Assembly: GCA_034696485.1 (NCBI GenBank)
Contig: JAQIWT010000082.1
Span: 1 to 37,798 of the forward strand
DNA length: 37,798 bases
Source: Isohypsibius dastychi
Taxonomy: Eukaryota; Tardigrada; Eutardigrada; Parachela; Isohypsibiidae
Reading direction: 5' to 3'
Part shown: one piece after another, positions 4,985-31,058 of the stretch
Layout: each line of letters starts with the position of its first letter
How positions within the stretch are numbered: position 1 is the first letter of the stretch
Notes under the pieces: model-generated
Database searches by the model: none
What the model saw: only the letters and a program-made list of their open reading frames with translations
What the model was told of the DNA's origin: nothing
Position numbers and translations under genes: made by a program

Positions 4985-7715
4985 TCAGTCTCTGGACATT
5001 TGGAAAAGAATCGGGATCCATCGCAGACTTGTTTTCCTTGATTCTTTCACCATGAGAAGTTGACGGCACAAATCTTCGGTACAACAAAAAGCTGGTTCGC
5101 AATGAACGGTTTCTGAGGGACAAAAATGCTCGAAGAAATTTAACGTTAAGATGTTATGGGGGTTGGTGGTAGACTGCCACACAAAGTTTTGCTGAACATC
5201 AATTCGCCGACGTCCTACATAGAAGATATCGTTGTCACCGACAGAGTAGCTCATTCTAATGATACCGTGGACTTCAAATATTTTCAGCGGACCCTTCGAA
5301 GTGACCCAGTATGAATTAGTGATGGGTCTTTTTAGATGTCGTCCCCACGATAGTGCATCCACCTTTTCCCCAGATTGCAACACGGCATATTCAAATACTC
5401 TGATGTCCGTAACTTCTCGTGGTTGCCCGGCGGCTATTGTATTGATGACAAAAAGCTGGAGTTCCTCTGATAAATGTGATTCCTTCAGGGACCGGCCACT
5501 CCCAGATATTCGCTGTTTAAAAGGCGCCGGTCGAAAGCTGTCCAAAAAACGCACAGTTTGCCACATATCAAGTTTCCGAACCACTTCTTTGTCCACGTTG
5601 ATTTTGCCGCATTGGAATCGTTTGATGACCCGAAAGAAGTCTTCATTTGCATAGTTGGCGAAATTGATGAGAGGTCCCCAACGACGATAGCACAGGGGCA
5701 AGTGAAGCAGCTGGTGCCAATTCCAGCCGATTGACTCCTTTCCGAAATAATTAGAACTTAGGTGGATGAATTCATTGATCATTAGGGTCGCTGCTTCCTC
5801 ACGGTCATCCATGACTCTTTCGGCTGACATGACTGGGTCGACCGGATACCAATCGGTTAGCAACAAAACGAGCGCTCCCGTTACAGTCCGCATAACATGA
5901 CGAATTTCGGAATCAATATGCGCTTTGAGCAAATGGTTTTCCCCGCATACGAAGAGGAACAAATAAATAACACACATCAGCGTTTCAGATGATTTCCATT
6001 CCTGAAAACTCGCAATACTACCACGAGGCCACCTGAGAAAATAAACAAATGTCTATACCATACAAAACCATCTTTGATTAGAAGCTTCATATTCACCGGC
6101 AAAGATTACTTGGCTTTAAAATTGTTCGGTTCAATGCATCAATTGCGGTTACGCCGGCGGCAGTTATTAACCGGGAACGCCTGTCATGATATTTCCGGTG
6201 TGCTGGTTGACCAGGTTGTACGGATGGGTCGGTTATAAGAAGTCGAGATTTCCCGTATGGCATCTGATCGATTGGAACCTCGATCAAGATATGCAAGAAG
6301 TTTTTGACAAAGCCTTGCACAATATGCATAATATCATGAGGGAAACCTGTTCCAAAGTCGAGGTGATTTTTGCCTGCGAATCAATATGAAATATAAATCA
6401 TGAGATCAAAAAAAAAAGAAAATATACCTAGTCTCTGCAACTCGGATAACCGTTTGACTCCGCGAACCCCCGCCGCTTTAATCGATTTTATAGCAGTGGG
6501 TGTAGTGGCATTCATCAACCGTTTTCTCAATTCCAAATAGTGGTCGAGGATACTTTCATGAGTTCTCAACCTGGCTGGTTGATCCCGATATGGGAAACAG
6601 GCAGTACTTGGTGGATTTCCGGGAGAAGAAATGATTTCACATGTCGTACACGGTCCATCTCTCTTATTATAACGCGAAAGCCCCGACGTGTCGCTCCTGG
6701 CAGGTGAGTCTGCCTCGATAAATCGCAAAAAAACCTTCCGTGTTTGTCCGATCACAAGCATTCCGTTCGCGGATAAATCAAGTAGCTGTCTGACGATTGG
6801 TCGCCACAACACATCCGGTGGGATTGATTTGTCCGTAACACTGATGGCTATGACGAAGGAGTAATTCTGGCGCATCTTGAACGGCAAATTGTTGATGATG
6901 ACACGAACAATGACCATTGAGTTCGTTCTTGACACATTGTGAACCGGCGCTCCGTCAACGAACATGGATAAAGATATATCACCTGGCTGGATATCACCAT
7001 TGTAAAACTCCGTTCCGTCTTGCATCGTCAGATGACCACATCCCGGGTGTCGATCAAACCATTTGGTAACGCTTTCTTCACTTAGGGCACTCCTTATGCT
7101 ATGTTCTAGATTGGCTACATAAAACCGGCTCGTCAAATTCTCCGAATCAACAGCTGTTCCTACGAAGCCATCTGATTCACACGCCCTGCAGTTTTGAATA
7201 CGCTGATCGAGTTCAGGACCCAAATATCGGCCATGTTTCGAACAATATCGATAGCAGTTGTATGCTGATTCCGGATTCAGAATATCTTTGTCCATGATCC
7301 ATTTTGATCGCGGCATACAATTTCCGGCAGGCAAATATTTGGCAAGATAACGCAGTATTGATCCGACACAGGCATGCGACAAAGCAAATCTATGACTTAG
7401 CATCAGCAGATCGACTATCGCTTCTTCGCGATCATAAGGTGATCCGCTGAAAAGCCTGCCATTCGTGCTTTCGGTATCTTCTTCGGAGTCTAAATCTGAG
7501 CCAGATTCAGATGTTTGGTTCGAATAATCCGAAGATTCCAGGTGGGACTCTGCGCGCTGTTGTTGTTGTTGTTGTATGCTTTCTTCATCTACTTCTTGGT
7601 CCGGCCAGGCAATATCCTCCTCATCGTCAGAACTCATCTCATGGCGAATCCGTCGTTCCCGCGACTGCAGTCCGCGTTTCGTAAGCCGATCAATGGGTTT
7701 ACGTCGTGGCGCCAT
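4985..7715 (-). mobile_element. Intact CACTA/EnSpm-like transposase gene (Tnp2-type)
   Basis: Three exons, 7715-6428, 6373-6097 and 6032-4985 (phases 1 and 2), give an unbroken 870-aa protein. The N-terminus is basic (MAPRRKPIDRLTKRG), then acidic/Ser-rich with a short poly-Gln run. Around residues 150-180 a Cys/His cluster (YRYCSKHG ... NCRAC) resembles the metal-binding motif of this family. Around residue 250 comes FVDGAPVHNVSRTNS, matching the family's FxDGxPLxxSS segment. Exon 2 carries DFGTGFPHDIMHIVQGFVK (the D-x-MH-x-x-GxVK block). Exon 3 carries the WKSSE block, then WNWHQLLHLPLCYRRWGP and a C-terminal region resembling DUF4218-type sequence. No stop or frameshift interrupts it, so it is either recently mobile or retained as a host gene. 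No convincing terminal inverted repeats or target-site duplication were found. The assignment rests on remembered block order, not on a search. Confidence 0.75.
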
Positions 7716-17696: not shown

Positions 17697-18119
17697 ATGG
17701 AAAACATGAAGTTCTGCGTTTTGGCCGTCTTTTTGGTCAGCATCATGATCTGTGCCGTCACTGCAGGCAAGTTCAGCGAAGGAAATTACAATGGTAGTAG
17801 GGTGCAGCTCAAATCTCTTGTTGCAGAAACTGACGCGGAATCCAGATATTTGGCAAGGGTGAAACGTGACTGGAAATGCAACCCAGGCTTCAGCGCCGAA
17901 GAAAAAGCCAAAATAAAGTCCTGCTTCCGGGCCAATTGCAAATCCGCTGGAAAGAAGGGGAAGAAAGACAAGGAACCCAAAGTTTGCACCGCCGACGGGA
18001 AGCGATTCAAGAACCAATGTAAGCTGAATTGCGCTCGCACTCAGGTTGGCTTCATGAGCGAACAAATCACCCCTTGTCCACTGAACAAAGCTGTTTGCGC
18101 CACTGATGCCGAAGTCTAA
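17697..18119 (+). CDS. Kazal-like secreted protein with furin-type site, copy 2
   Basis: Open as one 140-aa frame. Residues 1-23 are a signal peptide (MENMKFCVLAVFL, cleavage after VTA). A propeptide-like segment ends in RVKR, a furin-type site, giving a mature chain starting DWKCNPGFS. The domain has eight cysteines, with KIKSCFRANC, a Lys-rich insertion, then VCTADGKRFKNQ-C-KLN-C and a closing C, which fits Kazal spacing (C-x10-C-x3-C). Protease inhibition is the family's usual role; the target is unknown. It is clearly paralogous to the gene at 782-1234. The bases 17767-17826 begin GCAAGT and end TTGTTGCAG, are 60 long and in frame, and start exactly where the paralog has its intron. Splicing would remove 20 residues and give 120 aa. 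AATAAA lies at 18165-18170. Confidence 0.78.
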   Translation: MENMKFCVLAVFLVSIMICAVTAGKFSEGNYNGSRVQLKSLVAETDAESRYLARVKRDWKCNPGFSAEEKAKIKSCFRANCKSAGKKGKKDKEPKVCTADGKRFKNQCKLNCARTQVGFMSEQITPCPLNKAVCATDAEV

Positions 18120-18396: not shown

Positions 18397-21300
18397 TTAT
18401 CTTTCAGGTTTCTTTCTCCTGTTGCTTCCTTTCTTTATTTTGCATTGTACGCTGGATGCTTTATCACAGGCTCCAATTAAGGAGTTGAACGATAGTCCAT
18501 CTGAACAGGCGAATGTCACAAAGGACCCATCCGGTTCGCAGTTGTAGAATGTTTTGCAAGACTGGTCCGGGTCGGGGGTTAGACCGGTCTTTCCGTTGCA
18601 GTCAAAATAGGTTTTCTATTAAAAACCTTGGTCGAGCTGTCTGCGTTTAGAAAGTTCTAGAAGAACTTACGGAAACTCTGATTTGAGCAAATCCTGGCGA
18701 GCCACTTGTCAAACATGGAACGTTTCTCTCCAGATCGCAGGCTCCAAGCTTTTCGTTGAATCGAAGCTAGAAAAAAAGCATTTCCAGTTGCGACAGAGTA
18801 GAATACCTCTACTAAACTTACATTATTTGGGCATGAGAAAGAGAAGTTCTTTCCATCCACTCGGCAATAAAAGTATTTGCGACAGCTGGAAGAAACGTCA
18901 GCAAAGAAGCCATATTTCCCGGTGTCACACCGAAATGAGTTGTTCGCCCCCGATCTCAGGAGTGACTGCTGAATAGCTGATTCCTGTGCTTCATTTGGAC
19001 TTATGGATAACTAAAAATGAGCAAATCGGTTAAAAAGAAACAAATTTACTATGTATACTTTGTCTGCATGCATTGGGCAGCACGGCTTTACAAAGTCACA
19101 GTCGGGACCCGCATTCTCAAAAGGTCATGAGATTCACACTACGGTGCACATACGTGATTGGACTTACCCCTAAAGCAACCTCTGTTCCAGAAATGGGGTT
19201 GAGATTGCGGTAGAATCCACTATTGCTGTCACCACCAGAAAGTCGTTCTGGCCAGTCACAAGATCCTATCTGGAAGTTGAAAACCAGATTGTCTGGGCAT
19301 ACATGCTTGATCGTGGATCCATCGGTTTGACAAAAATAATAGACACTCGGGGTATTGAGATTGCCAAAGTATCCTCGTTTCCCGGTACAGTCGAACTCTT
19401 GCTCCTGTGAGAAACAAAAGTATCAGGGCATATAAATGCATCTTGATTTGAGCGGGAGTGTGTCCTTACGCCAACGTATGGTCCCTTGAATATATTTTCT
19501 GGCCAATCACATGCTCCTCGCGCATCCTTTGAAAATAAGTAGTTTCATTACCGGAGAATTCAGAGATGTGGTATTTTACGTTGAATCGGAGATTTGAAGG
19601 ACACACAAAACGATGTTTTCGTCCATCGTTTTCACAGTAATAAAATACTCGGTATTCTCGAACAGAGTCGCCAAAGAACCCACTCCTTCCTTGACAGTCA
19701 AAGAAGGGCGTCTCGTTCCAGGTGGGTGTATTGCCCTATAGACCAATGACAATAAAACGTCGTATCCTGCTCTTTATCTCTGGTCAGTATGCACATACCG
19801 GACCAACACTTTGTTGAGCGCAGTTGACGTTGGCCGGCCAGTCACAGACACCAATGCTGCCGTTGTACTTGAGATCAGCTAGAATGGAACACTAAATTTT
19901 TCGGATATTATGAAACAAGATATGACTGAGGGTAATACCTGGACAGCGAAACTGAAACTTTGATCCATCAGCTTTGCAATAGTAATATACTCCTGTAACA
20001 AAATGATAATGATGGGTTTTGGGAAAAAGTGTGTCGATGTGTCGTCTATTTGCGCTTACTGCAGTCTTCCCTTATGTCGGGATAGTATCCAATGTGTCCG
20101 CGACAATCAAACGAACCGTCCGTGCTTCCCTGAAAATCGGTGTGTAAATTTTGAGTGCAAAAACCTGAGTTCGATCAACTGCACCAGTGATCCAGCATTT
20201 CCAGCACCACCAGACGACCCAGGTGCGTAAGCAGGAGCGCCAGAAATGCCAGCCCCCTCCTGTGCGATTGATGCAAAGTATCCGTTGTTTCCCTGCACGA
20301 CTGGTCGTTGAGGCTGCTGATACCCATTGTCAGTCTGGTATGCTGGCTGTGTATTTGAAGTTTGTGAGAATGGCACATTCTGCTGAGCTTGATATCCAGA
20401 AGACGGGTTGGTCTGACCATAGCTTGAACCAGAAGGGACTAAACTTGGTTGTTGATATCCTGTGGAAAACTGTACTGAAGGAGCCGATTGTCCGTAATCA
20501 GGACCACTTTGTTGATTGCTGGTATACTGAGGACTTCCACCAACAGGGTAAGAAGGAATATTCGGCTGAGCTGGGAGTGGAAGCTGAGAGCCAGTGCCTC
20601 CGTTTGGTGACAGCTGGGCTCCGTAGCTTGCTTGGCTTTGCGGACCTAAGATCGGGATCGCTGGTTGTTGAATCCTTCCCTGAAGGTCTGGTATGGTACC
20701 TGTGCCAAGATTCGTTGTGGAGGATGGCAACTGATTTCCTTGAAATGGTTGGTTGACTTGGATCCCTTGTTGTTGGGTGACGAACTGTGATTGGTCGTTC
20801 GCAACTGGCTGATTCCCTGTGGGAGGCTGACCAATGAACGTCTGCTGGTTGTTTGTTGATGGCTGAATGCCATTGGTCACTTGATTGAATATGGATGGTT
20901 GATTGTTTCCCAGAATTGGTGGATTGCTCAGAGATGGCTGAATTCCGTTCCCGAAAGTTCCGAAGCCATGTGTTTGTGGACGATCGTTTCCCAAAGTTCC
21001 CTGCTGGCGTTCCTGGAGGTTCTCATTGTTGGGCATGGTACCGACTTGATTATTGTCAACAACAACATTGAACAATGGAACGTTCCCATTCACTGGAACC
21101 TGATTGCCCATGATATTGATCATCTGGAAATTACTGCCATCACCGGGCATTGGTTGCTGATTCTGATTTGGAAACTGCTGAGCTTGGTCACGTGCTTGTG
21201 AGTTGAACTGAGCCTCCTGCATCGGTTGGATGTTCGGCTGCTGAAAAAGCGGCGGACGTTCCTGGACAGGTGGAACTGTGTTCTGATTGTTGATGAATGG

Positions 21301-24300
21301 TTGTTGCTGCTGATTCTGCTCGAACTCCTGCCGAATGCCAAAGTCATTCATAAGTGGCAATGGTTGTTGGAGCAGTGATTGTTGTTGTTGTTCCTGCTGT
21401 TGCTGGATCTGTTGCTGTTGCTGTTGCTGCTGCTGCTGCTGTTGTTGTTGTTGCTGATTCGGTTGCTGCTGCTGCTGTTGTTGCTGTTGTTGGTTCTGCT
21501 GGATACCACCAAAATTACTGTTTGGGTTGTCTGGCATCGGAACATTGTCACGAGCTTCGAAATTGTGAGTCTGTTGAGACTGGAAATTCAGGGGGATCGC
21601 CTGTTCACGCTGTTGAATATCTGGTCCATATCCAGCTGGAAAACCTTGTTGATCCATGAAATTATTCGTTAGTCTTCCTTGGAACTGTTGATTGGGGTTC
21701 CTGATATCGGTCAATGCCATCGCTTCGTTTTGTCGAGCAATATTCTCTTGCAATTGGATCAGCTGAGGGGGTAGCATCTCGTTTTGTGGATTCGGCGCTT
21801 CTAGAGGGTTCATGATTGATGGTAACTGACCAACCCGAGACTCCAGAGAGTTGCCAGTTTCCAGAGACAACGTGCTACCCGATCGCCCACAAAATACAGT
21901 ATGCTCGAGGTCACATATTCCCAGCCCTTCAAATCCGCTTCGTTTGAACAAAAAAAAAGTTTTCAGAACATCGAAAATCTCACTTTCGTTGAAGATTTGT
22001 CCCTGTGGGCATTGTAACCGAGTCTTCTTCCCGTACGCGTTACAATTGTAATACACTCTGCAGCCTTGGGTAAGATCAGCAAAAAGTCCCATCTTCCCAG
22101 CACAGTCGAAGTCCTGACACAGTCATTAGCGTACATACATGAAGAAATCAGAAAGCCTCGAGGCTTACGTCCAAACTTCTGGATGTTAGGCAGTTCACGT
22201 TATGTGGATCGTCGCATGCTCCGCTGGATTCATAAGCTTTACGTAAACCAACACGTGAAGAAGTAGTTGAAAAACACTCACTTCACTTCGTTGTACATCA
22301 GAATGCCCGGACATGTGAAGCTGGAAGAATGGTACAACACATTGACCTTTGAAATTAACTTCATTTTGAATCTCCATACTTGTACGTTCTTCCCTCTGCC
22401 GAACAAAAGTAATACGACTTGCAGTTGCTGACGGGATCTGGGTAGAAGCCGATTTTGTCCGAGCAAAACCCTCCGCCAACCTGAATTACATTCAAATCAT
22501 TGACATACAGAAATAAGCGCATCGTAGACTTCTCTGAATGAATTTCAAACAAAACCCTCGCTTTTGTGGTAACGCATTAGAAGTGTCATTCATCACTGCC
22601 ATTATTGAAGCACTATTCATCGTTGAAAGTTCCACGAAAAATATCCGATAACACGTTTTTGGTTGTGATCTTTTTTTGCATGAGCATTAAGATCTAACAG
22701 TAGCTGACTTGTTTCTGACATGGTCGGGTGGCAAGAAATTAATTGACCAGGTGGCCTTGAGACACAACATGAGTTCTCTCCAAAATCTGCACGCCTGGCG
22801 TTCGTTCGCATTTCTTGGTGGACAGTCACTTACCAGAAGAGAACTGCAAGAGACCCGTTCGGGAAAGTCGCAGCTGCCAAGGAGTTCGTTGAATCTCAAG
22901 TGCGCTGGACACTGCAAGAGATGCTTGGGACCATTTGGCATGCACACCCTGCAGAACAAGAGGACATTTTCGTTGACCAGCTCGAAGGCTTTGTCACAGG
23001 CACTCGACGAAAAAAGGCGAAACTACTTACCAGTAGGAAGTGCATCCTGAAGAAATATCGGCAAACAAACCGTATCTGCCGCTGCAGTCAAAACTCTATA
23101 ATGAACATTTTTCGGTCCAGTTCAGTTCAAAACAATGTTTTGTCGTTTTATCCAAAATTTAAAATCAAGAAAAGTTTGTGGCTGTGGTCCAATTTTGGCG
23201 TTTGAAAATATTCGTTTTGTAAAGATTATTTCGTTCCGTTTCATGTAAGTTTAAAACAATACTCAGTTGCGACTCACGCTGCTCGTCGTGAAAGATATGG
23301 TATTTCCAGTTGGGCTCTGGCGTTCAGAGATTGACTCCGCTGCAAAATCAGGAGCTGGTCTAGCACCATCAATATTTCCATTCAGCGTCGGTTGCTGCTG
23401 TCCATCGGTAAAGTGGGATCTCGCAGGGACTACAAGACGGTAGATAAAAAACAACCGGAACAAAATCGGCATTTCATTATGTTGTTACTTGGTTGAGAAG
23501 GTGTTGGACTAAGAACATTGTTACTGGTAGCTGTTTGTGTCGAATAGCGACTGAATGGTCCCGAAAGGACATAGGAAGCCGGAGAAACAGGTCCGCAGTT
23601 TTGTGGTAGATCACATGCCCCGCAGTTCTGAAGCAAAATACCTTTGTAATTGGGCTGGTATAAACAGTGCCTTTATTGCGGAGGACAAAAAATAATGAGT
23701 AGCATGTTGCACCTCATTAAAAAACAATCCTTCCGGACAGCGAAAGTGACTTTTCTCGCCGTTTATACAGAAGAAGTATGAGCTACGATCTGTGCTGAAC
23801 GGGTCCGCGAAAAAGCCGGTCCGGCCATTACAACTAAAAATCTGTGAAAATAACAATTCAATATGTGATAGGAGGTGTCGCTTCAGTGATCGTCTTTGAC
23901 ATTGAAGTATAGTTCGCCGTTGGCAGAACATGATAATCAACAGTAATTAGGTGGTTCGTGGCATTGTTATGTGACCAATTCAAACTTCACCACACTTTTG
24001 TCATTTTTTATGTTGTATCAGAAAAAACGTATCAAAAGGTAATTATAAACTTCAAAAATATTGGAAGACATACCGCATCGGAGGAACAAACAACTTTGTT
24101 CGATTTCTGGCATGATAATGTGTCTTGATCGAATATCAATCCAGCTGGACACGATAGTTTGTCGAATGAACCATCCGGAAGGCAATTAAAGAATGTTTGG
24201 CAGTTGTGTTCTAGGTCAGCGACATATCCGGTATTTCCTCGGCATTTCGAAAACGTCGAACTTCTCGGAATACTTGTGGGTCGTTGTATCCAAACATCTG

Positions 24301-25083
24301 CGGTGGGGATCGTCGCAAACGTGCCTGGGAAAAATGGACTGGCGTTTTGGACATCTATTCCGTTTTCCTGGAGAATCTGGAGACGAGTTTTGTCGGGGAC
24401 AGGTTGATCTTGGCTAGAAACCTTTACACAGGAAGAAACATTGTTTGAACCAACTAGTTGAGTTAAAAACCTCCGAAAACGGTATAATTACCTGGTTTAA
24501 CGACTGCGTTATTATTCTGGGAATCAAATTAGATTCCATTTGCGATGTATTGAATGGTCCATTTTGTAATAAGCGTGGGTTGAAATTTCCGTTTTTTCCA
24601 GAGAAACTGGAGTTTGCGCCACTTCGGGATTGAAGATTCGAATTCTTTAGATGGTTTGTCACTACAGTCCGTATCATAGAGGAATTCAGCTGTGGAGCAG
24701 TCTGATTGAGCACCTGATAACAGTCGCTGCCGATTTTTCTTCACAGAAACCGTTAAAATTCAATGGACTTACTTTGGTCATTTCATATCGAAGTTTACTT
24801 TCAGGAGATAAAGCAATACCAACAAATCTTTCCGCTATGGGCATATCTTGCGTAATAACAGAACAAAAGGTGGCAATCAAGACCACTGTCCATCTGGTCA
24901 CACAACCTGCGAATTTTTGCGTTCAATTGTAGTATTGGTAAATTAATTTACTTCGATGTTTGTTTTCAAACTTTGAAAAGGAAACAATGATATTTCATTT
25001 TGAAATACCCCAACAAATATATATGCTAGCCAAAAATATTTCATAAAAATGGCACTCTTACCAGACGCTGTAATCCAAAACAT
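18397..25083 (-). CDS. Secreted ten-domain CBM14 chitin-binding protein with Gln-rich centre (gene B)
   Basis: Exons: 25083-25062, 24906-24773, 24713-24492, 24421-24074, 23841-23713, 23627-23489, 23429-23278, 23095-23031, 22948-22834, 22480-22380, 22320-22282, 22223-22169, 22113-20165, 20124-20060, 19992-19939, 19878-19799, 19735-19580, 19526-19470, 19404-19168, 19010-18822, 18766-18671 and 18615-18397. Frames join throughout; 1540 aa, or 1521 if 21983-21927 is also spliced out. Signal peptide MFWITASG plus WTVVLIATFCSVITQ. Ten peritrophin-A domains, recognised by C-x-G-x-x-G, YYxC, CP and FN-x-CD-x-P-x-x-V-x-C. Five lie before and five after a roughly 590-residue Gln/Asn/Pro-rich segment with poly-Gln runs. 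Domains 7 and 8 lack cysteines 2 and 6; domain 2 lacks cysteine 2. Expected to bind chitin outside the cell in cuticle or gut lining. Domain 1 resembles domain 1 of gene A (CRGxTGYVAD), so the two are related tandem genes. Confidence 0.82.
21372..21503 (-). repeat. CAA/CAG poly-glutamine tract in gene B
   Basis: Mixed CAG/CAA codons encode runs of 10 and 16 Gln plus shorter ones, broken by Asn-Pro, Ile and Glu. The mix of both codons makes it less expansion-prone than a pure CAG run. Confidence 0.85.
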
Positions 25084-26067
25084 TTGAGAATCCGATTCGC
25101 TCTCAAGCGCAATTCGCGCCGATAACATTAATACATCCGGTGAAAAATATCCTCATAATGAACACGAGAATTCAGATATGGAATAACGCTGATTGTTCGA
25201 CAAAGAATATTGAAATTCATTCAACTTGATGCAAGAGCTAGATGATAAGATTTTTTCTCCACCGGAAGAGATATGAAGAGCGACACCAATTTAAAATTAA
25301 ATGATCTTAGGCCGATTAACGCTTAAGTACGATTCCACGCCATCATTTCACTCTCGACTATAAACAACGCCCGTTATTAAGTAGGCATAATATTTGCTAA
25401 GGACTTAGTAGCAGCTACCTGCTTTTTGTTCACCTCAAGTGTCTCTTCATCCCCATCAACTTGGAGAAGATGACTAGTTTCATTTGCTTAGTGCTCAAAT
25501 TAATTTCTATGAGGTGTTGGACCGTCACAAAAAACGTTCGCTAAATCATGTCTGACTTCTATTTTTGTGGTTTTTTTCCAAAGTTCAAGCGATGTTCCGT
25601 GTTTTGGAAACTCTGACCACTCATCTGCAATCAGTATTTCCGGTGGCATTGCAGTTTGTTCTACGTGGATAAAATAAAACATGCTAATTTTGTCGGAAAA
25701 GGATTTCGTTCCTCATTCGGTCGATGTCGTTTGTTAAACACTGGTCGAACATGACAATCACTTTGTTTCTTTATGTCCGACCATTCCCCAATCAACTAAC
25801 AAAGAAAGGCGGTAGTGGCTCATTTGAATGTTTGCACTCAAGTGGTTTCTGGATTGTAAAAAAACGATCAGGTCTAGGTGGGCAGCTCTGACAAAATTGG
25901 CTGAACTCACAGCTACAACCACTTGTTGCTCTTCGGAGAAAATTCGACGTTACAGTCAGAAAATAAACATATTTATTGCAGAAGTAAATTAACGGGAGAA
26001 AAATAAAACCAGATCTCTTACACCGGAAAAGGTTATTCGAAGGCTGCTGTTACTTACTTAGACACCT
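25084..26067. other. Intergenic between genes B and A
   Basis: 5' flank of gene B and 3' flank of gene A. A polyadenylation signal for gene A lies at 25972-25977. No TATA box is evident just upstream of 25083. No coding exon is supported. Confidence 0.5.
25972..25977 (-). promoter_or_regulatory. Polyadenylation signal of gene A
   Basis: TTTATT on plus (AATAAA on the sense strand), about 90 bases past the TGA at 26068-26070. Confidence 0.5.
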
Positions 26068-29000
26068 TCATCCCTGGAAAAATTTTAAATTCTGTACTAG
26101 ATTGCTAAAGTTCTGGGTTTGAAAGACTAGAGATTTATTCTGGGGTTTATAGTAACTCCTTTGTCTTGAGTCGCGAAGCCAGCTCTTTTTGGAGGTCATG
26201 TTGTCGGCCGTTGTTTTCAAGTCGATCACCGGTAACATCGATACCGGCGTTTCAGGCGCAATGTACTTCTTGGCAGTTGGATCGTCTTCCGAGCTTGACG
26301 GCGCTAGCTGTGCATTCTCTGAAAAGTTCGCTCCATTATAGTTCACATATTCATCGGCGTAAAAGCTTGGCAGACGTCCGTGTGTCGCGACTGTATCGGC
26401 GTAAAGAGAGCTATCGTAACCGCGAACAAGTGGTAACCTTCCATAGACTTGTTGCGAGTTGCTCAAAGGGATTTCCAGCTCCATAGATTGGTCAATATTA
26501 CTCGCGGCGTAATCAGCGGCATAAGGGGCTGCTCCAAAGTTGGACCCATATGAAGAAGCGAGGTTCCCAGACTCCCCACTACCGTAAGAGCCACCCGTGT
26601 TAACATTCTGCCCAGACCCGTCAAGTACGGTCGTGGTGACCGGTATCCTCACGTTTATGGTACCACCATTTCCCGCCACACAGTTGCAGTTGCTGCAATA
26701 ATCAGCGGTCAGTTTGGTTAAGCGAAAAAAAAACATGAATTACCGGGGATCATCACATGCGTTAATCTTTGTGTTGAATTGCATTCCGGTAGGACAACGA
26801 AAACCTGTGCCCCTACCGTTCTGTTCGCAGCTGTAAAAGGTCATACATGACTGTGTGACATCTGGAACAAATGTGTTGGCCGTGTTTCCTGTCATGCAGA
26901 CTTTTACACCCTGAAATTAATAGATACCGTAGATGAAACTGTCAAAAACTGCTATGCGATAAACTTACCGGTTGGACAATACCCGGTACATTTGTGAAGC
27001 AATTCACATTCTGTGGGACATCGCAGGTGCCTAGATTTTCATTGAACAGCAAGTTCCCACTACACATTCTCATCTCTCCGCTCCCATCTTCCGTGCACAT
27101 AGCGTACCAGCTGCACCCACTTGTGCGATCAGCAAACATTCCACTTCTTCCGATACAGAGCGTGGGAACCTGTCTTGAATCGGGTCCCTGTGGTGTTCCA
27201 CCTTGTCCCGCATTTCTAGGATCTTCTCTTCCGGTGAAAGTTATATCAACTGAGATACCGGGTCGTAGAACTTGTTGGCTCTCCGGTGTAAGCACAGCAG
27301 GTGGTTGGATCTGGTTGACTCCGTAGTAACCACTTCCCCACATTGGTTGATTTACATAATCGACCCGGGAACCGTAACCATTCTCATTGTTCCCGTAACT
27401 GTTGCCCTCCTGGTTACCTTGTTGATAGAAAGTCTGCTCTCCACTAGGCGGATAAGGATTATAAGTCACCGCTGGAGCCGTAACCACCTGTTGCGGGTAA
27501 AATGGCGCGTCGGTGACCACAGGCCGAGATCCACCGTTACCTATACCGTTGTTACCGTATCCACCAGCACCGCCGGAAACCGCGTATCTGATCTCGTTTT
27601 CATTGTTTCCAAACTGATTGGAGTTGAAGACAGTGGTGGTTTCAGGTCTGAAAACTGGACGAGGTGTTGCCGGACCCTGGTTTCCATATTCCCCTCCTTG
27701 GCTATACTGGATATTGTTTTCGCTGTTCACATTCTGCACTGGGTAGTTCGGCTGGACAGCCGGTTGCTGAATAGACCCATAGGAGCTCTGTGTTGTTACC
27801 AGAGGGCGTGTATTCTGGTATGTTCCGGTAAATGTTCCACCGTAAGCACTGTTGCCACTCGGTGCATAACCTCCAGTGAAATATCCATTTCCTAGGTTCT
27901 GGTTTTCGGTGGTTTGCGGGGTGGCTGGCGGTCTTTGTGAACCCGACCCAACTTGGAATGGGAAAACACATTGACCAAGAACGGGATCAAAGATTGTCTC
28001 CTGAGGACATCGCTGGGGGACGAAAGTCCCATCTGGTGTACAGCGTGCGTAAGCTTGCCTGTTGGTGGGATTAGCGTAGTACCCGGCAGGCCGAACGCGG
28101 CAGTCCAGCGGTTGGTTGTTCCAGTCCACGGAGACGTACTGCAAAATTTCCTGGAAAAATCGTTTCAATCAAATTGATCAAAGAGCACATAAGACAAAAT
28201 GTTAAAAGAATGACTATTAATCGTTCTGCTTTACACAGCTTTAGCGCTATATTGGTAAGTAGAAAAATTCGGTGATCTTGAAAGTAAGCTTGTTTTAGCG
28301 TACGCTTTGTGGTCGCTGAGTAAAGCCTCCTTGGCGCAGATAATCCGGCCAATCACACACAGCAGATTCTGAAAGACCCACGTCATTGTTCGGGATGCTG
28401 TTCATGAAAATATGCTTTTGACTTACGTTCATTGAAGACTAAATTGGCTGCAAGAAGAAAAACAACATGGAACTTGTGTTGGATGCTGACATGAGAAATA
28501 AATTGATCTCACATGGACAAACATATTGGAATTTAACTCCGTCAGCATGGCACATGTAGAATATTCTGCCACCGCGGTTCTGATCGGCATAGAACCCATC
28601 TTTGCCGCGACAATCAAAGTTCGGAGAGTTAAGCGTATTTGGCAAAAAGTCCTAGAGTCAAAGCAATCAACAATAATTTGCTGTTTGTATAACAAGATTA
28701 GTCATGTGAAAAAACACCAAAAAAAACGAAGTACCCATTTTTCGTTTTTTTGTTGACTCACCGGGACTACCTGGTTCCGGCACCGAACATTTTGGGGCCA
28801 GTCACACACGGCGAGTGACTACAAAAATAATGAATCACGATTATCCAAATAACCAGATCAAATCTTGATATTTGAACAGAATTATGACAGATCAGCATAC
28901 ATTGTTGAAGAGAAGGGTATTTGGACATTCGAATCGGTTTGGAATTCCTTCCGGATTGCAGTATATGAACTGAGAGCATCCCGTTTCGATGATTGCATAA

Positions 29001-31058
29001 TAGCCGATTTTGCCTCGGCAATCATAGTTATTGTCCTTTACGCAAACAAAGAGAAGAAAAGGCGTTATTTGTCATCACGTTCTACTCTCTCTTCAAGACC
29101 CGCTTACGATGCCTAATCCAGGATTAGAATTGGCGCTGCTGTAAAACGTCGTCGTACCTCCATTGGCTCCAGACTGTGGGGTGACCACATTGACCGACGG
29201 ATAAGTCGAACCAATACCATTCCACGGAAGTCGCTGCGTAATCGCATCAATATTACTTATCGGACTTTGGGTCATTCCTCCGTAATTATAGTTGTTATAG
29301 TAGGAGTAGAGTGGCGGACCAGGGGCTGGTCCGGAAGTCACCGCCGTGATAGGGGGTCGAATGACTACCGATGGTCGTGTCGTCGCACCACATGTCACCG
29401 TTTCTGGAGAGTCACAGGAAAGAGAGAGCGGATTCCAGCGAAGATTCCCCGGACATGTGTGGAGATATGTCACTCCGGCATTACAGTAAAATGAGCGTCG
29501 ACAGTCCGGATCGTTGCCCTGGTACCACCCGTTCCGGCCAGTGCAATCAAAAACCTGAATCAGACACTGTGTACCTAAATCATTATTTCAAAGCACCAAA
29601 TTGAAACCGATTTTGATAGAAAAAATGAATGCCGTGAAATTAATTTACGGAACCTACACTTGAATCAACGCGAACTCCGTAACATCTACTGAGATCATTA
29701 TCACAACTGCTGCTGAGCTCGTTGAACGCTTGACCGGTAGGACAGCGTAAAAACTGGCTGTTACCATCCTGACAAAAATAGTAGGTTGAGCAGTCTGCGG
29801 GATTTGAGAAGAATCCAGGTCCTCGTGTTTGGCAGAATGAATTCTGTAAAGTCAGCAAAGGAGCAATCATGAATATCAGCCATATTTATTGACAAAACAG
29901 AATTAATTCTTACTCGTCCATCCGCAGTTGGCTGACTCGGGTATGTCGGGGTTTGTGGTGGCTGGTTGCCACATCGGACATTCTGAGGGATGTCACAACA
30001 GCCAATTTGCTCGTTGAAGATCAGCCCATCTATAAGATGTTTCGTTTTAATATTTTGAACGAAAACCAATCTTTGAAGAAAGAGCGATTCCCTTGTGAAA
30101 ACGGAACTCACCAGGGCAGCTCAACTGGCGTGATCGTCCGCTTGGTTCACAGAAGAAGAATCTTCGGCAACCGGAAGAATAGTCCGAAAAGAATCCACGC
30201 TTTCCCGTACACTGATAAAGCATTACGACAAAGCATTACGATCAGTTCTGACTTCAAAATCGGACGGAATTAAAGTTGCCTACCGATACAGTTGTCTGAC
30301 CCGTCTGAGACCCATCCAGCAAACCAGCGCAGTTGACTTCATGTGGCATCTTACAGCACTGTGTGTTCTCATCGAACTGATAGTTTCCCGGACATGTACT
30401 TGTTGTTACCGTACCATCGGGAAGACAGTTGAAAAACACTTGACAATTTCGGTTAATATCTGCCACATATCCAGTTCGACCTCGACAGACCGAGGGAGAG
30501 AGCGGGGACGCTGGAGCCCCATAGGATGTGGGTCCGTATCCCTGCTATAAAATACCCGTTTTTCGCCACTAGTCTTTCTTGATCAATAATAGTACGTGAC
30601 CTTTTGAAAACCCCAACATGTTTGGTCATGATTCATTACTTAATAAAATCAAATCCGAATTTTGAATACTATGGTAGATGCCTGTTCTGGTCAACTCAGC
30701 AGAACGTGAGGACTAACACCAACTTGAATAAAAAAAGCCGCACACGTTCTTTGATTTTGTTGTAATGAATCACAAATTCGGGCAAGCTAATCCAAATGGA
30801 TATGATCGTAATGAGTGGAGATAATCCTCGCACTTCCCGTCACAAACTGGTCAAATTTCACCTTACCTGCGAAAGTTGTCGGATCTTTGGTAACTGAGTC
30901 TCATCTAATGCTTGAGCCGAGCAATGGACCACGGATATCAGAAGAAGTAGCAGTATGTCTGGGAAATATTAGCAGTTAATAATGTGAAGATTCAATAATT
31001 AAATTTTGTATAATAATTCGAAAAACAAGTTACCGAAACCAATTACACTTCCGGCCAT
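26068..31058 (-). CDS. Secreted nine-domain CBM14 chitin-binding protein (gene A)
   Basis: Exons: 31058-31034, 30958-30867, 30541-30284, 30211-30112, 30029-29914, 29843-29649, 29554-29108, 29035-28901, 28818-28762, 28651-28513, 28447-28427, 28368-28304, 28150-26969, 26910-26744 and 26692-26068. Phases agree throughout; 1207 aa. Signal peptide MAGSVIGFDILLLLLISVV, cleaved near CSAQA. Nine CBM14 domains follow: D1 on exon 3, D2 exons 4-5, D3 exon 6, D4 exon 7, D5 exons 8-9, D6 exons 10-12 (with a 21-nt microexon), D7 and D8 at the two ends of exon 13, D9 exons 14-15. A Gly/Asn/Tyr/Gln-rich linker of about 270 residues separates D7 and D8. A Tyr/Ser-rich tail of about 200 residues follows D9. 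D6 and D7 lack cysteines 2 and 6; the rest are complete six-cysteine domains. Extracellular chitin binding in cuticle or peritrophic matrix is the expected role. The upstream neighbour of gene B and structurally its sister. Confidence 0.84.
28427..28447 (-). other. 21-nt microexon in gene A
   Basis: Flanked by a TCTTGCAG acceptor and a GTAAGT donor, phase 1 on both sides. It supplies the SNLVFNE strip between cysteine 4 (CP) and cysteine 5 (AVCDWP) of CBM14 domain 6. Without it the domain would lack the conserved FN segment. Confidence 0.7.

Follow-up and report, generated by a model that had tools for sequence, protein, structure and literature searches.

Consecutive four-cysteine CBM14 domains shared by two tandem tardigrade genes, with a probable origin before the duplication of the genes

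In the tardigrade Isohypsibius dastychi, two tandem genes, here called A and B, each encode an array of CBM14 (peritrophin-A fold) domains, and in each array two consecutive domains lack the same two of the six canonical cysteines. Both genes lie on contig JAQIWT010000082.1 (assembly GCA_034696485.1), of which positions 1 to 37,798, a stretch of 37,798 nucleotides referred to below as the window, were analysed. Domains 7 and 8 of gene B (B7 and B8) and domains 8 and 9 of gene A (A8 and A9) carry the first, third, fourth and fifth cysteines (C1, C3, C4 and C5); the same pair is conserved in orthologous proteins, and the two arrays are collinear. We think it fairly probable that the four domains are genuine two-disulfide CBM14 modules, that the loss preceded the duplication, and that three of the four still bind chitin.

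The spliced translation of B7 reads FDCQGRSGFFGDSVREYRVFYYCENDGRKHRFVCPSNLRFN from its first exon and DARGACDWPENIFKGPYVG from its second, whereas B8, FDCTGKRGYFGNLNTPSVYYFCQTDGSTIKHVCPDNLVFNFQIGSCDWPERLSGGDSNSGFY, is encoded by a single exon; these exons coincide exactly with the span 19168-19735 in which the sequence-only reading had placed a paired loss of C2 and C6, and that loss is confirmed. Six residues before C3, the usual place of C2 in the six-cysteine register, B7 has Tyr, and B8, one residue shorter at that point, has either Pro or an alignment gap. Neither domain has any cysteine between C5 and the domain that follows. Both score well above the curated cut-off of the Pfam profile CBM_14 (PF01607; 22.1 bits), B7 with 35.2 bits and B8 with 37.8 bits. 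The earlier suggestion that gene A has the same consecutive pair also holds: A8 and A9 (42.0 and 42.3 bits) have the identical cysteine set. All four domains thus depart from the canonical three-disulfide register by the absence of C2 and C6, and carry C1, C3, C4 and C5 alone, as does the house dust mite allergen Der p 23. In solved CBM14 structures C1 is bonded to C3, C2 to C6 and C4 to C5, according to PMC10619976, so the joint loss of C2 and C6 takes out a single bond as a unit, and no cysteine is left unpaired. The four domains would keep the C1-C3 and C4-C5 bonds and would fold without the third, and the C-terminal tail, normally stapled by C2-C6, would be free, giving a looser hinge between adjacent modules.

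Comparison with related genomes, which the sequence-only reading had proposed, revealed the same four-cysteine pair in all three ortholog proteins that cover the region. Paramacrobiotus metropolitanus is a macrobiotid tardigrade; its LOC129588682 (P0001) is the ortholog of gene B, identical at 74% of positions across 96% of residues 625-1007, and the orthologs of gene A are P. metropolitanus LOC129588684 (60% identity) and Hypsibius exemplaris BV898_04525 (63%). Judged by these identities, the window belongs to a tardigrade that is probably nearer to Paramacrobiotus, though of a different species. All three are annotated merely as uncharacterized or hypothetical proteins. Because the records of both P. 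metropolitanus loci give a contig of 1,290,421 bases, A and B are very likely close together in that species too. B7 is 93% identical to its P. metropolitanus counterpart, which has the same four cysteines, and ties with B3 for the highest value among the ten B domains; this conservation fits purifying selection. B8, at 75%, is the lowest of the ten. Protein searches found no gene B ortholog reaching domains 7 and 8 outside Paramacrobiotus, and none at all in Hypsibius or Ramazzottius. The first of these results weighs against the reading favoured here; the absences are weak evidence, since such searches need shared words and similar length. Of the 14 CBM14 domains matched in Ramazzottius varieornatus RvY_01036-2 (P0015), perhaps a third paralog, not one has the four-cysteine set.

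The sequence-only reading knew of no named four-cysteine CBM14 subclass, and in this respect it was not borne out, because the domain type itself is already published. Der p 23 (PDB 4ZCE) is reported to have two disulfides, Cys27-Cys46 and Cys56-Cys69 (PMC12609036), which are exactly the C1-C3 and C4-C5 bonds. However, Der p 23 is a single domain, whereas the tardigrade domains are internal, stand in tandem and have a tail beyond C5; the match to the solved Der p 23 chain stops at its C5 (residue 49 of 50), so that it has no Trp two residues beyond C5. Within multi-domain proteins, four-cysteine peritrophin-A domains are described for HoCBP76 of the beetle Holotrichia oblita (domain 7) and for Tribolium PMP14 (PMC4013664). 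In the HoCBP76 sequence (P0010) the four cysteines are again C1, C3, C4 and C5, and the chain stops three residues past C5; this is one C-terminal domain without Trp, in contrast to the internal pair of tardigrades. This domain looks similar to Der p 23 before C3, a hint of a shared four-cysteine subtype in arthropods. Human chitotriosidase (CHIT1) shares the C1-C3 and C4-C5 core and the Pro, Leu and Trp positions (as set out in PMC4844120 and PMC6128652), but its third disulfide, Cys460-Cys462, is sited elsewhere (according to PMC4844120); by one account, just two of the four disulfides of Avr4 are present in Der p 23 and CHIT1 (PMC6128652). What is new in the tardigrade genes is an internal tandem pair, retained in both paralogs, with the tail kept and Trp present in three of the four domains. 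No recognisable paper on these genes appeared, by title or abstract opening, in the open-licence literature on four- or lost-cysteine CBM14 domains and tardigrade chitin-binding proteins.

An AlphaFold2 model of B8, built from nine exon stretches of the window, has a predicted local distance difference test score of 78, with low values in the last 11 residues, and resembles CBM14 structures. Among solved structures, Der p 23 has the top Z score (6.8; root-mean-square deviation 1.8 across 48 residues), level with CHIT1 (6.6), and Foldseek places CHIT1 first and Der p 23 second, with no match reaching an E value of 0.001.

The joint absence of C2 and C6 is uncommon among the CBM14 domains compared here. 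Three protein searches yielded 17 proteins with 151 CBM14 matches above 15 bits, of which 149 could be parsed, C5 being missing or displaced in the other two. Both C2 and C6 are present in 139 of the 149 and neither in six, while C2 alone is missing in two and C6 alone in two; a narrower parse of 128 matches gave the identical ten exceptions. B7 and B8 of P. metropolitanus make up two of the six domains without both, and A8 and A9 from P. metropolitanus and from H. exemplaris the other four, which shows that the pattern is conserved across genera. These are few independent events; the four-cysteine domain of HoCBP76 scored too low to be included among the 151. The two losses of C6 alone are in one beetle protein (P0006), and the two losses of C2 alone both affect the second domain of a B-type protein, which has an additional cysteine three positions ahead of C5 (NCGAC). 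The second domain of gene B in the window (B2) has this arrangement (NENCGACDLPQNC), with C2 gone, C6 retained and the new cysteine in place, as do P. metropolitanus P0001 and protein P0016; the extra cysteine may represent a re-sited and long-maintained third disulfide. In the source genome, a 30.4 Mb assembly, a profile search gave 46 CBM_14 matches. Inspection of 30 of these loci by eye, several of them cut at exon ends, revealed no complete single-exon domain lacking C2 and C6 outside the window; of the other 16, four are inside the window and were read there, and 12 were left out.

The residues at the contact positions bear on whether the four-cysteine domains bind chitin. Pro451, Leu454 and Trp465 are named as crucial for chitin contact in CHIT1 (PMC6128652), and we placed them at C4+1, C4+4 and C5+2 on the basis of Cys450 and Cys463. 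The full set is present in three of the four four-cysteine domains of the window (B7, B8 and A8), compared with two of the 17 others (A7 and B6). Fisher's test gave p 0.028 for this enrichment, and an aromatic comparison gave p 0.021, both post hoc and uncorrected. B7, B8 and A8 all retain the Trp, as do the four copies examined in orthologs. Because Pro, Leu and Trp are retained, chitin binding probably persists in B7, B8 and A8, and the freed tail would mainly alter stability or flexibility. To go by its title, a 2003 paper reports that variants of a fungal CBM14 protein with disrupted disulfides are protease-sensitive but retain chitin binding.

Several points weigh against continued binding. 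Besides being post hoc, the two tests treat domains that are not independent, A7/B6 and A8/B7 being counterparts. A9 lacks the Leu and has Phe where Trp would follow C5, and Pro is replaced by Ser in B8 of P. metropolitanus. Since Trp follows C5, binding might also suffer from release of the tail. Der p 23, the nearest two-disulfide relative, is described as a non-binder of chitin (PMC10619976). The four domains might accordingly be structural spacers or protein-protein modules without chitin binding, in which a disulfide was lost by relaxed constraint. We regard this as unlikely overall, though it is the most probable of the alternatives: the same source describes EHEP, like Der p 23, as lacking chitin binding, conservation among the B domains is lowest in B8, and A9 has lost both Leu and Trp. 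However, B7 is jointly the most conserved, the Trp after C5 persists in B7, B8 and A8 and in four ortholog copies, and EHEP is described as having six cysteines per domain, so that non-binding cannot be put down to the lost bond.

As to origin, the sequence-only reading had offered two possibilities, that the layout predates the A/B duplication or that it is under selection. The former is the most likely, given the collinearity of the arrays; for selection, the conservation of B7 fits purifying selection, but B8 has the lowest identity of the ten. Each combination of an A domain (A3-A11) and a B domain (B1-B10) was scored after cysteines had been masked as X, and scores were averaged over the copies from the window, from P. 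metropolitanus and from H. exemplaris. Among paths that keep the order, the best one joins A3-B1, A5-B2, A6-B3, A7-B6, A8-B7, A9-B8, A10-B9 and A11-B10, and its score was reached by one of 10,000 shuffles of the B order, or three of 10,000 when A3/B1 was left out. A8 and B7 are reciprocal best partners even though their cysteines were masked, and so are the flanking six-cysteine pairs A7/B6, A10/B9 and A11/B10; B8 finds its best partner in A9 but comes only second in the row of A9 after mean-score correction. From this collinearity, the four-cysteine pair would most likely be older than the split: the C2-C6 disulfide would have been lost before the tandem genes arose by duplication in tardigrades, and the loss maintained since.

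The alternative is convergence, in which two adjacent domains of A and of B each lost C2 and C6 independently after the duplication. Maximum-likelihood trees of 49 domains, based on 49 columns from which the cysteine columns had been removed, cluster copies of the same A or B domain, but across the genes they give strong support to A3 + B1 only and pair neither A8 with B7 nor A9 with B8, which counts against an origin before the split. Constrained trees with separate origins were also not rejected, and the same four-cysteine set occurs elsewhere, in Der p 23 and HoCBP76. In approximately unbiased (AU) tests with better searches, however, no constraint was rejected, not even a wrong control pairing; the trees are powerless here, and the constraint tests are therefore not used as evidence. 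Fast searches had apparently rejected joint separate A8 + A9 and B7 + B8 clades, a result not upheld in the better searches. Convergence is improbable, since it leaves aside the masked collinearity, which equates A8 with B7 and A9 with B8 by position and residue similarity, and the reciprocal best six-cysteine pairs on either side, and since four matching losses at matching places are less economical.

Removal of the cysteines by sequencing or gene-model error, an explanation that the sequence-only reading had also allowed for, is refuted for practical purposes: nothing found speaks for it, the recurrence of the pair in three ortholog proteins makes a sequencing error very unlikely, the B7 and B8 exons have GT-AG junctions, two further species have identical residues in their annotated proteins, and four domains are affected alike.

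The coordinates of both genes are given in Table 1. The model of B5-B10 was spliced by hand, and all of its internal junctions are AG/GT, with a weak GTGC donor after the Q-rich exon; the gene B query protein lacked its last two residues. Introns interrupt B2, B3 and B4, with splice sites judged by eye. The gene A model covers A3-A11, with the A6 exon inserted by hand from its open reading frame (ORF). Introns between domains are in phase 0 wherever phase was checked (B5 to B10 and A7/A8; 18397-28651, minus strand), so that the CBM14 domains sit in 0-0 units, and introns within domains vary in position and phase. B5 and B6 are joined by a very long Q/N-rich linker inside one exon (21926-20185, minus strand), which includes a CTG/TTG-type repeat at 21379-21501 (plus strand). 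Just downstream of gene B, on the opposite strand, a 140-residue ORF (17697-18116, plus strand) has an apparent signal peptide by eye and matches Kazal_2 weakly (20.2 bits against a cut-off of 22.8). A 444-residue ORF at 6384-7715 (minus strand), with a weak Transposase_21 match of 20.5 bits (below the cut-off of 28.6), is possibly a transposon remnant.

Table 1. Positions of gene A and gene B features in the window
Feature	Position	Strand	Remarks
Gene B, C-terminal model (B5-B10 and Q-rich linker)	18397..22113	minus	11 exons; stop 18399-18397
B7	19470..19735	minus	exons 19735-19580 and 19526-19470; spliced model, AG/GT ends
B8	19404-19168	minus	single exon; spliced model
Gene B, B1-B4	22190..24250	minus	orthologous domains in P0001
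B1	24250-24077	minus	
B2	23841-23592	minus	
B3	23095-22846	minus	
B4	22471-22190	minus	
Gene A, A3-A11	26068..30541	minus	orthologs P0004, P0003
A8	28304..28651	minus	exons 28651-28513, 28447-28427 and 28368-28304; counterpart of B7
A9	27926..28150	minus	start of exon 28150-26969; counterpart of B8
A1	36284-36126		may belong to gene A or another gene
A2	about 34990-34640		may belong to gene A or another gene

To judge by their family, the A and B proteins are probably secreted linkers of a chitin matrix, in the cuticle or the gut lining. A bolder and doubtful proposal is that the adjacent four-cysteine domains form one two-domain, tardigrade-specific compliant hinge that arose before the duplication and binds chitin at both ends; if so, the freed tails would let the matrix flex, for example as the cuticle folds when the animal dries. 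Six-cysteine and four-cysteine CBM14 domains stand next to each other in one array, with a loss that probably predates the duplication, and thus form a natural series in which the role of the third disulfide, whether in stability, protease resistance or chitin binding, can be addressed directly.
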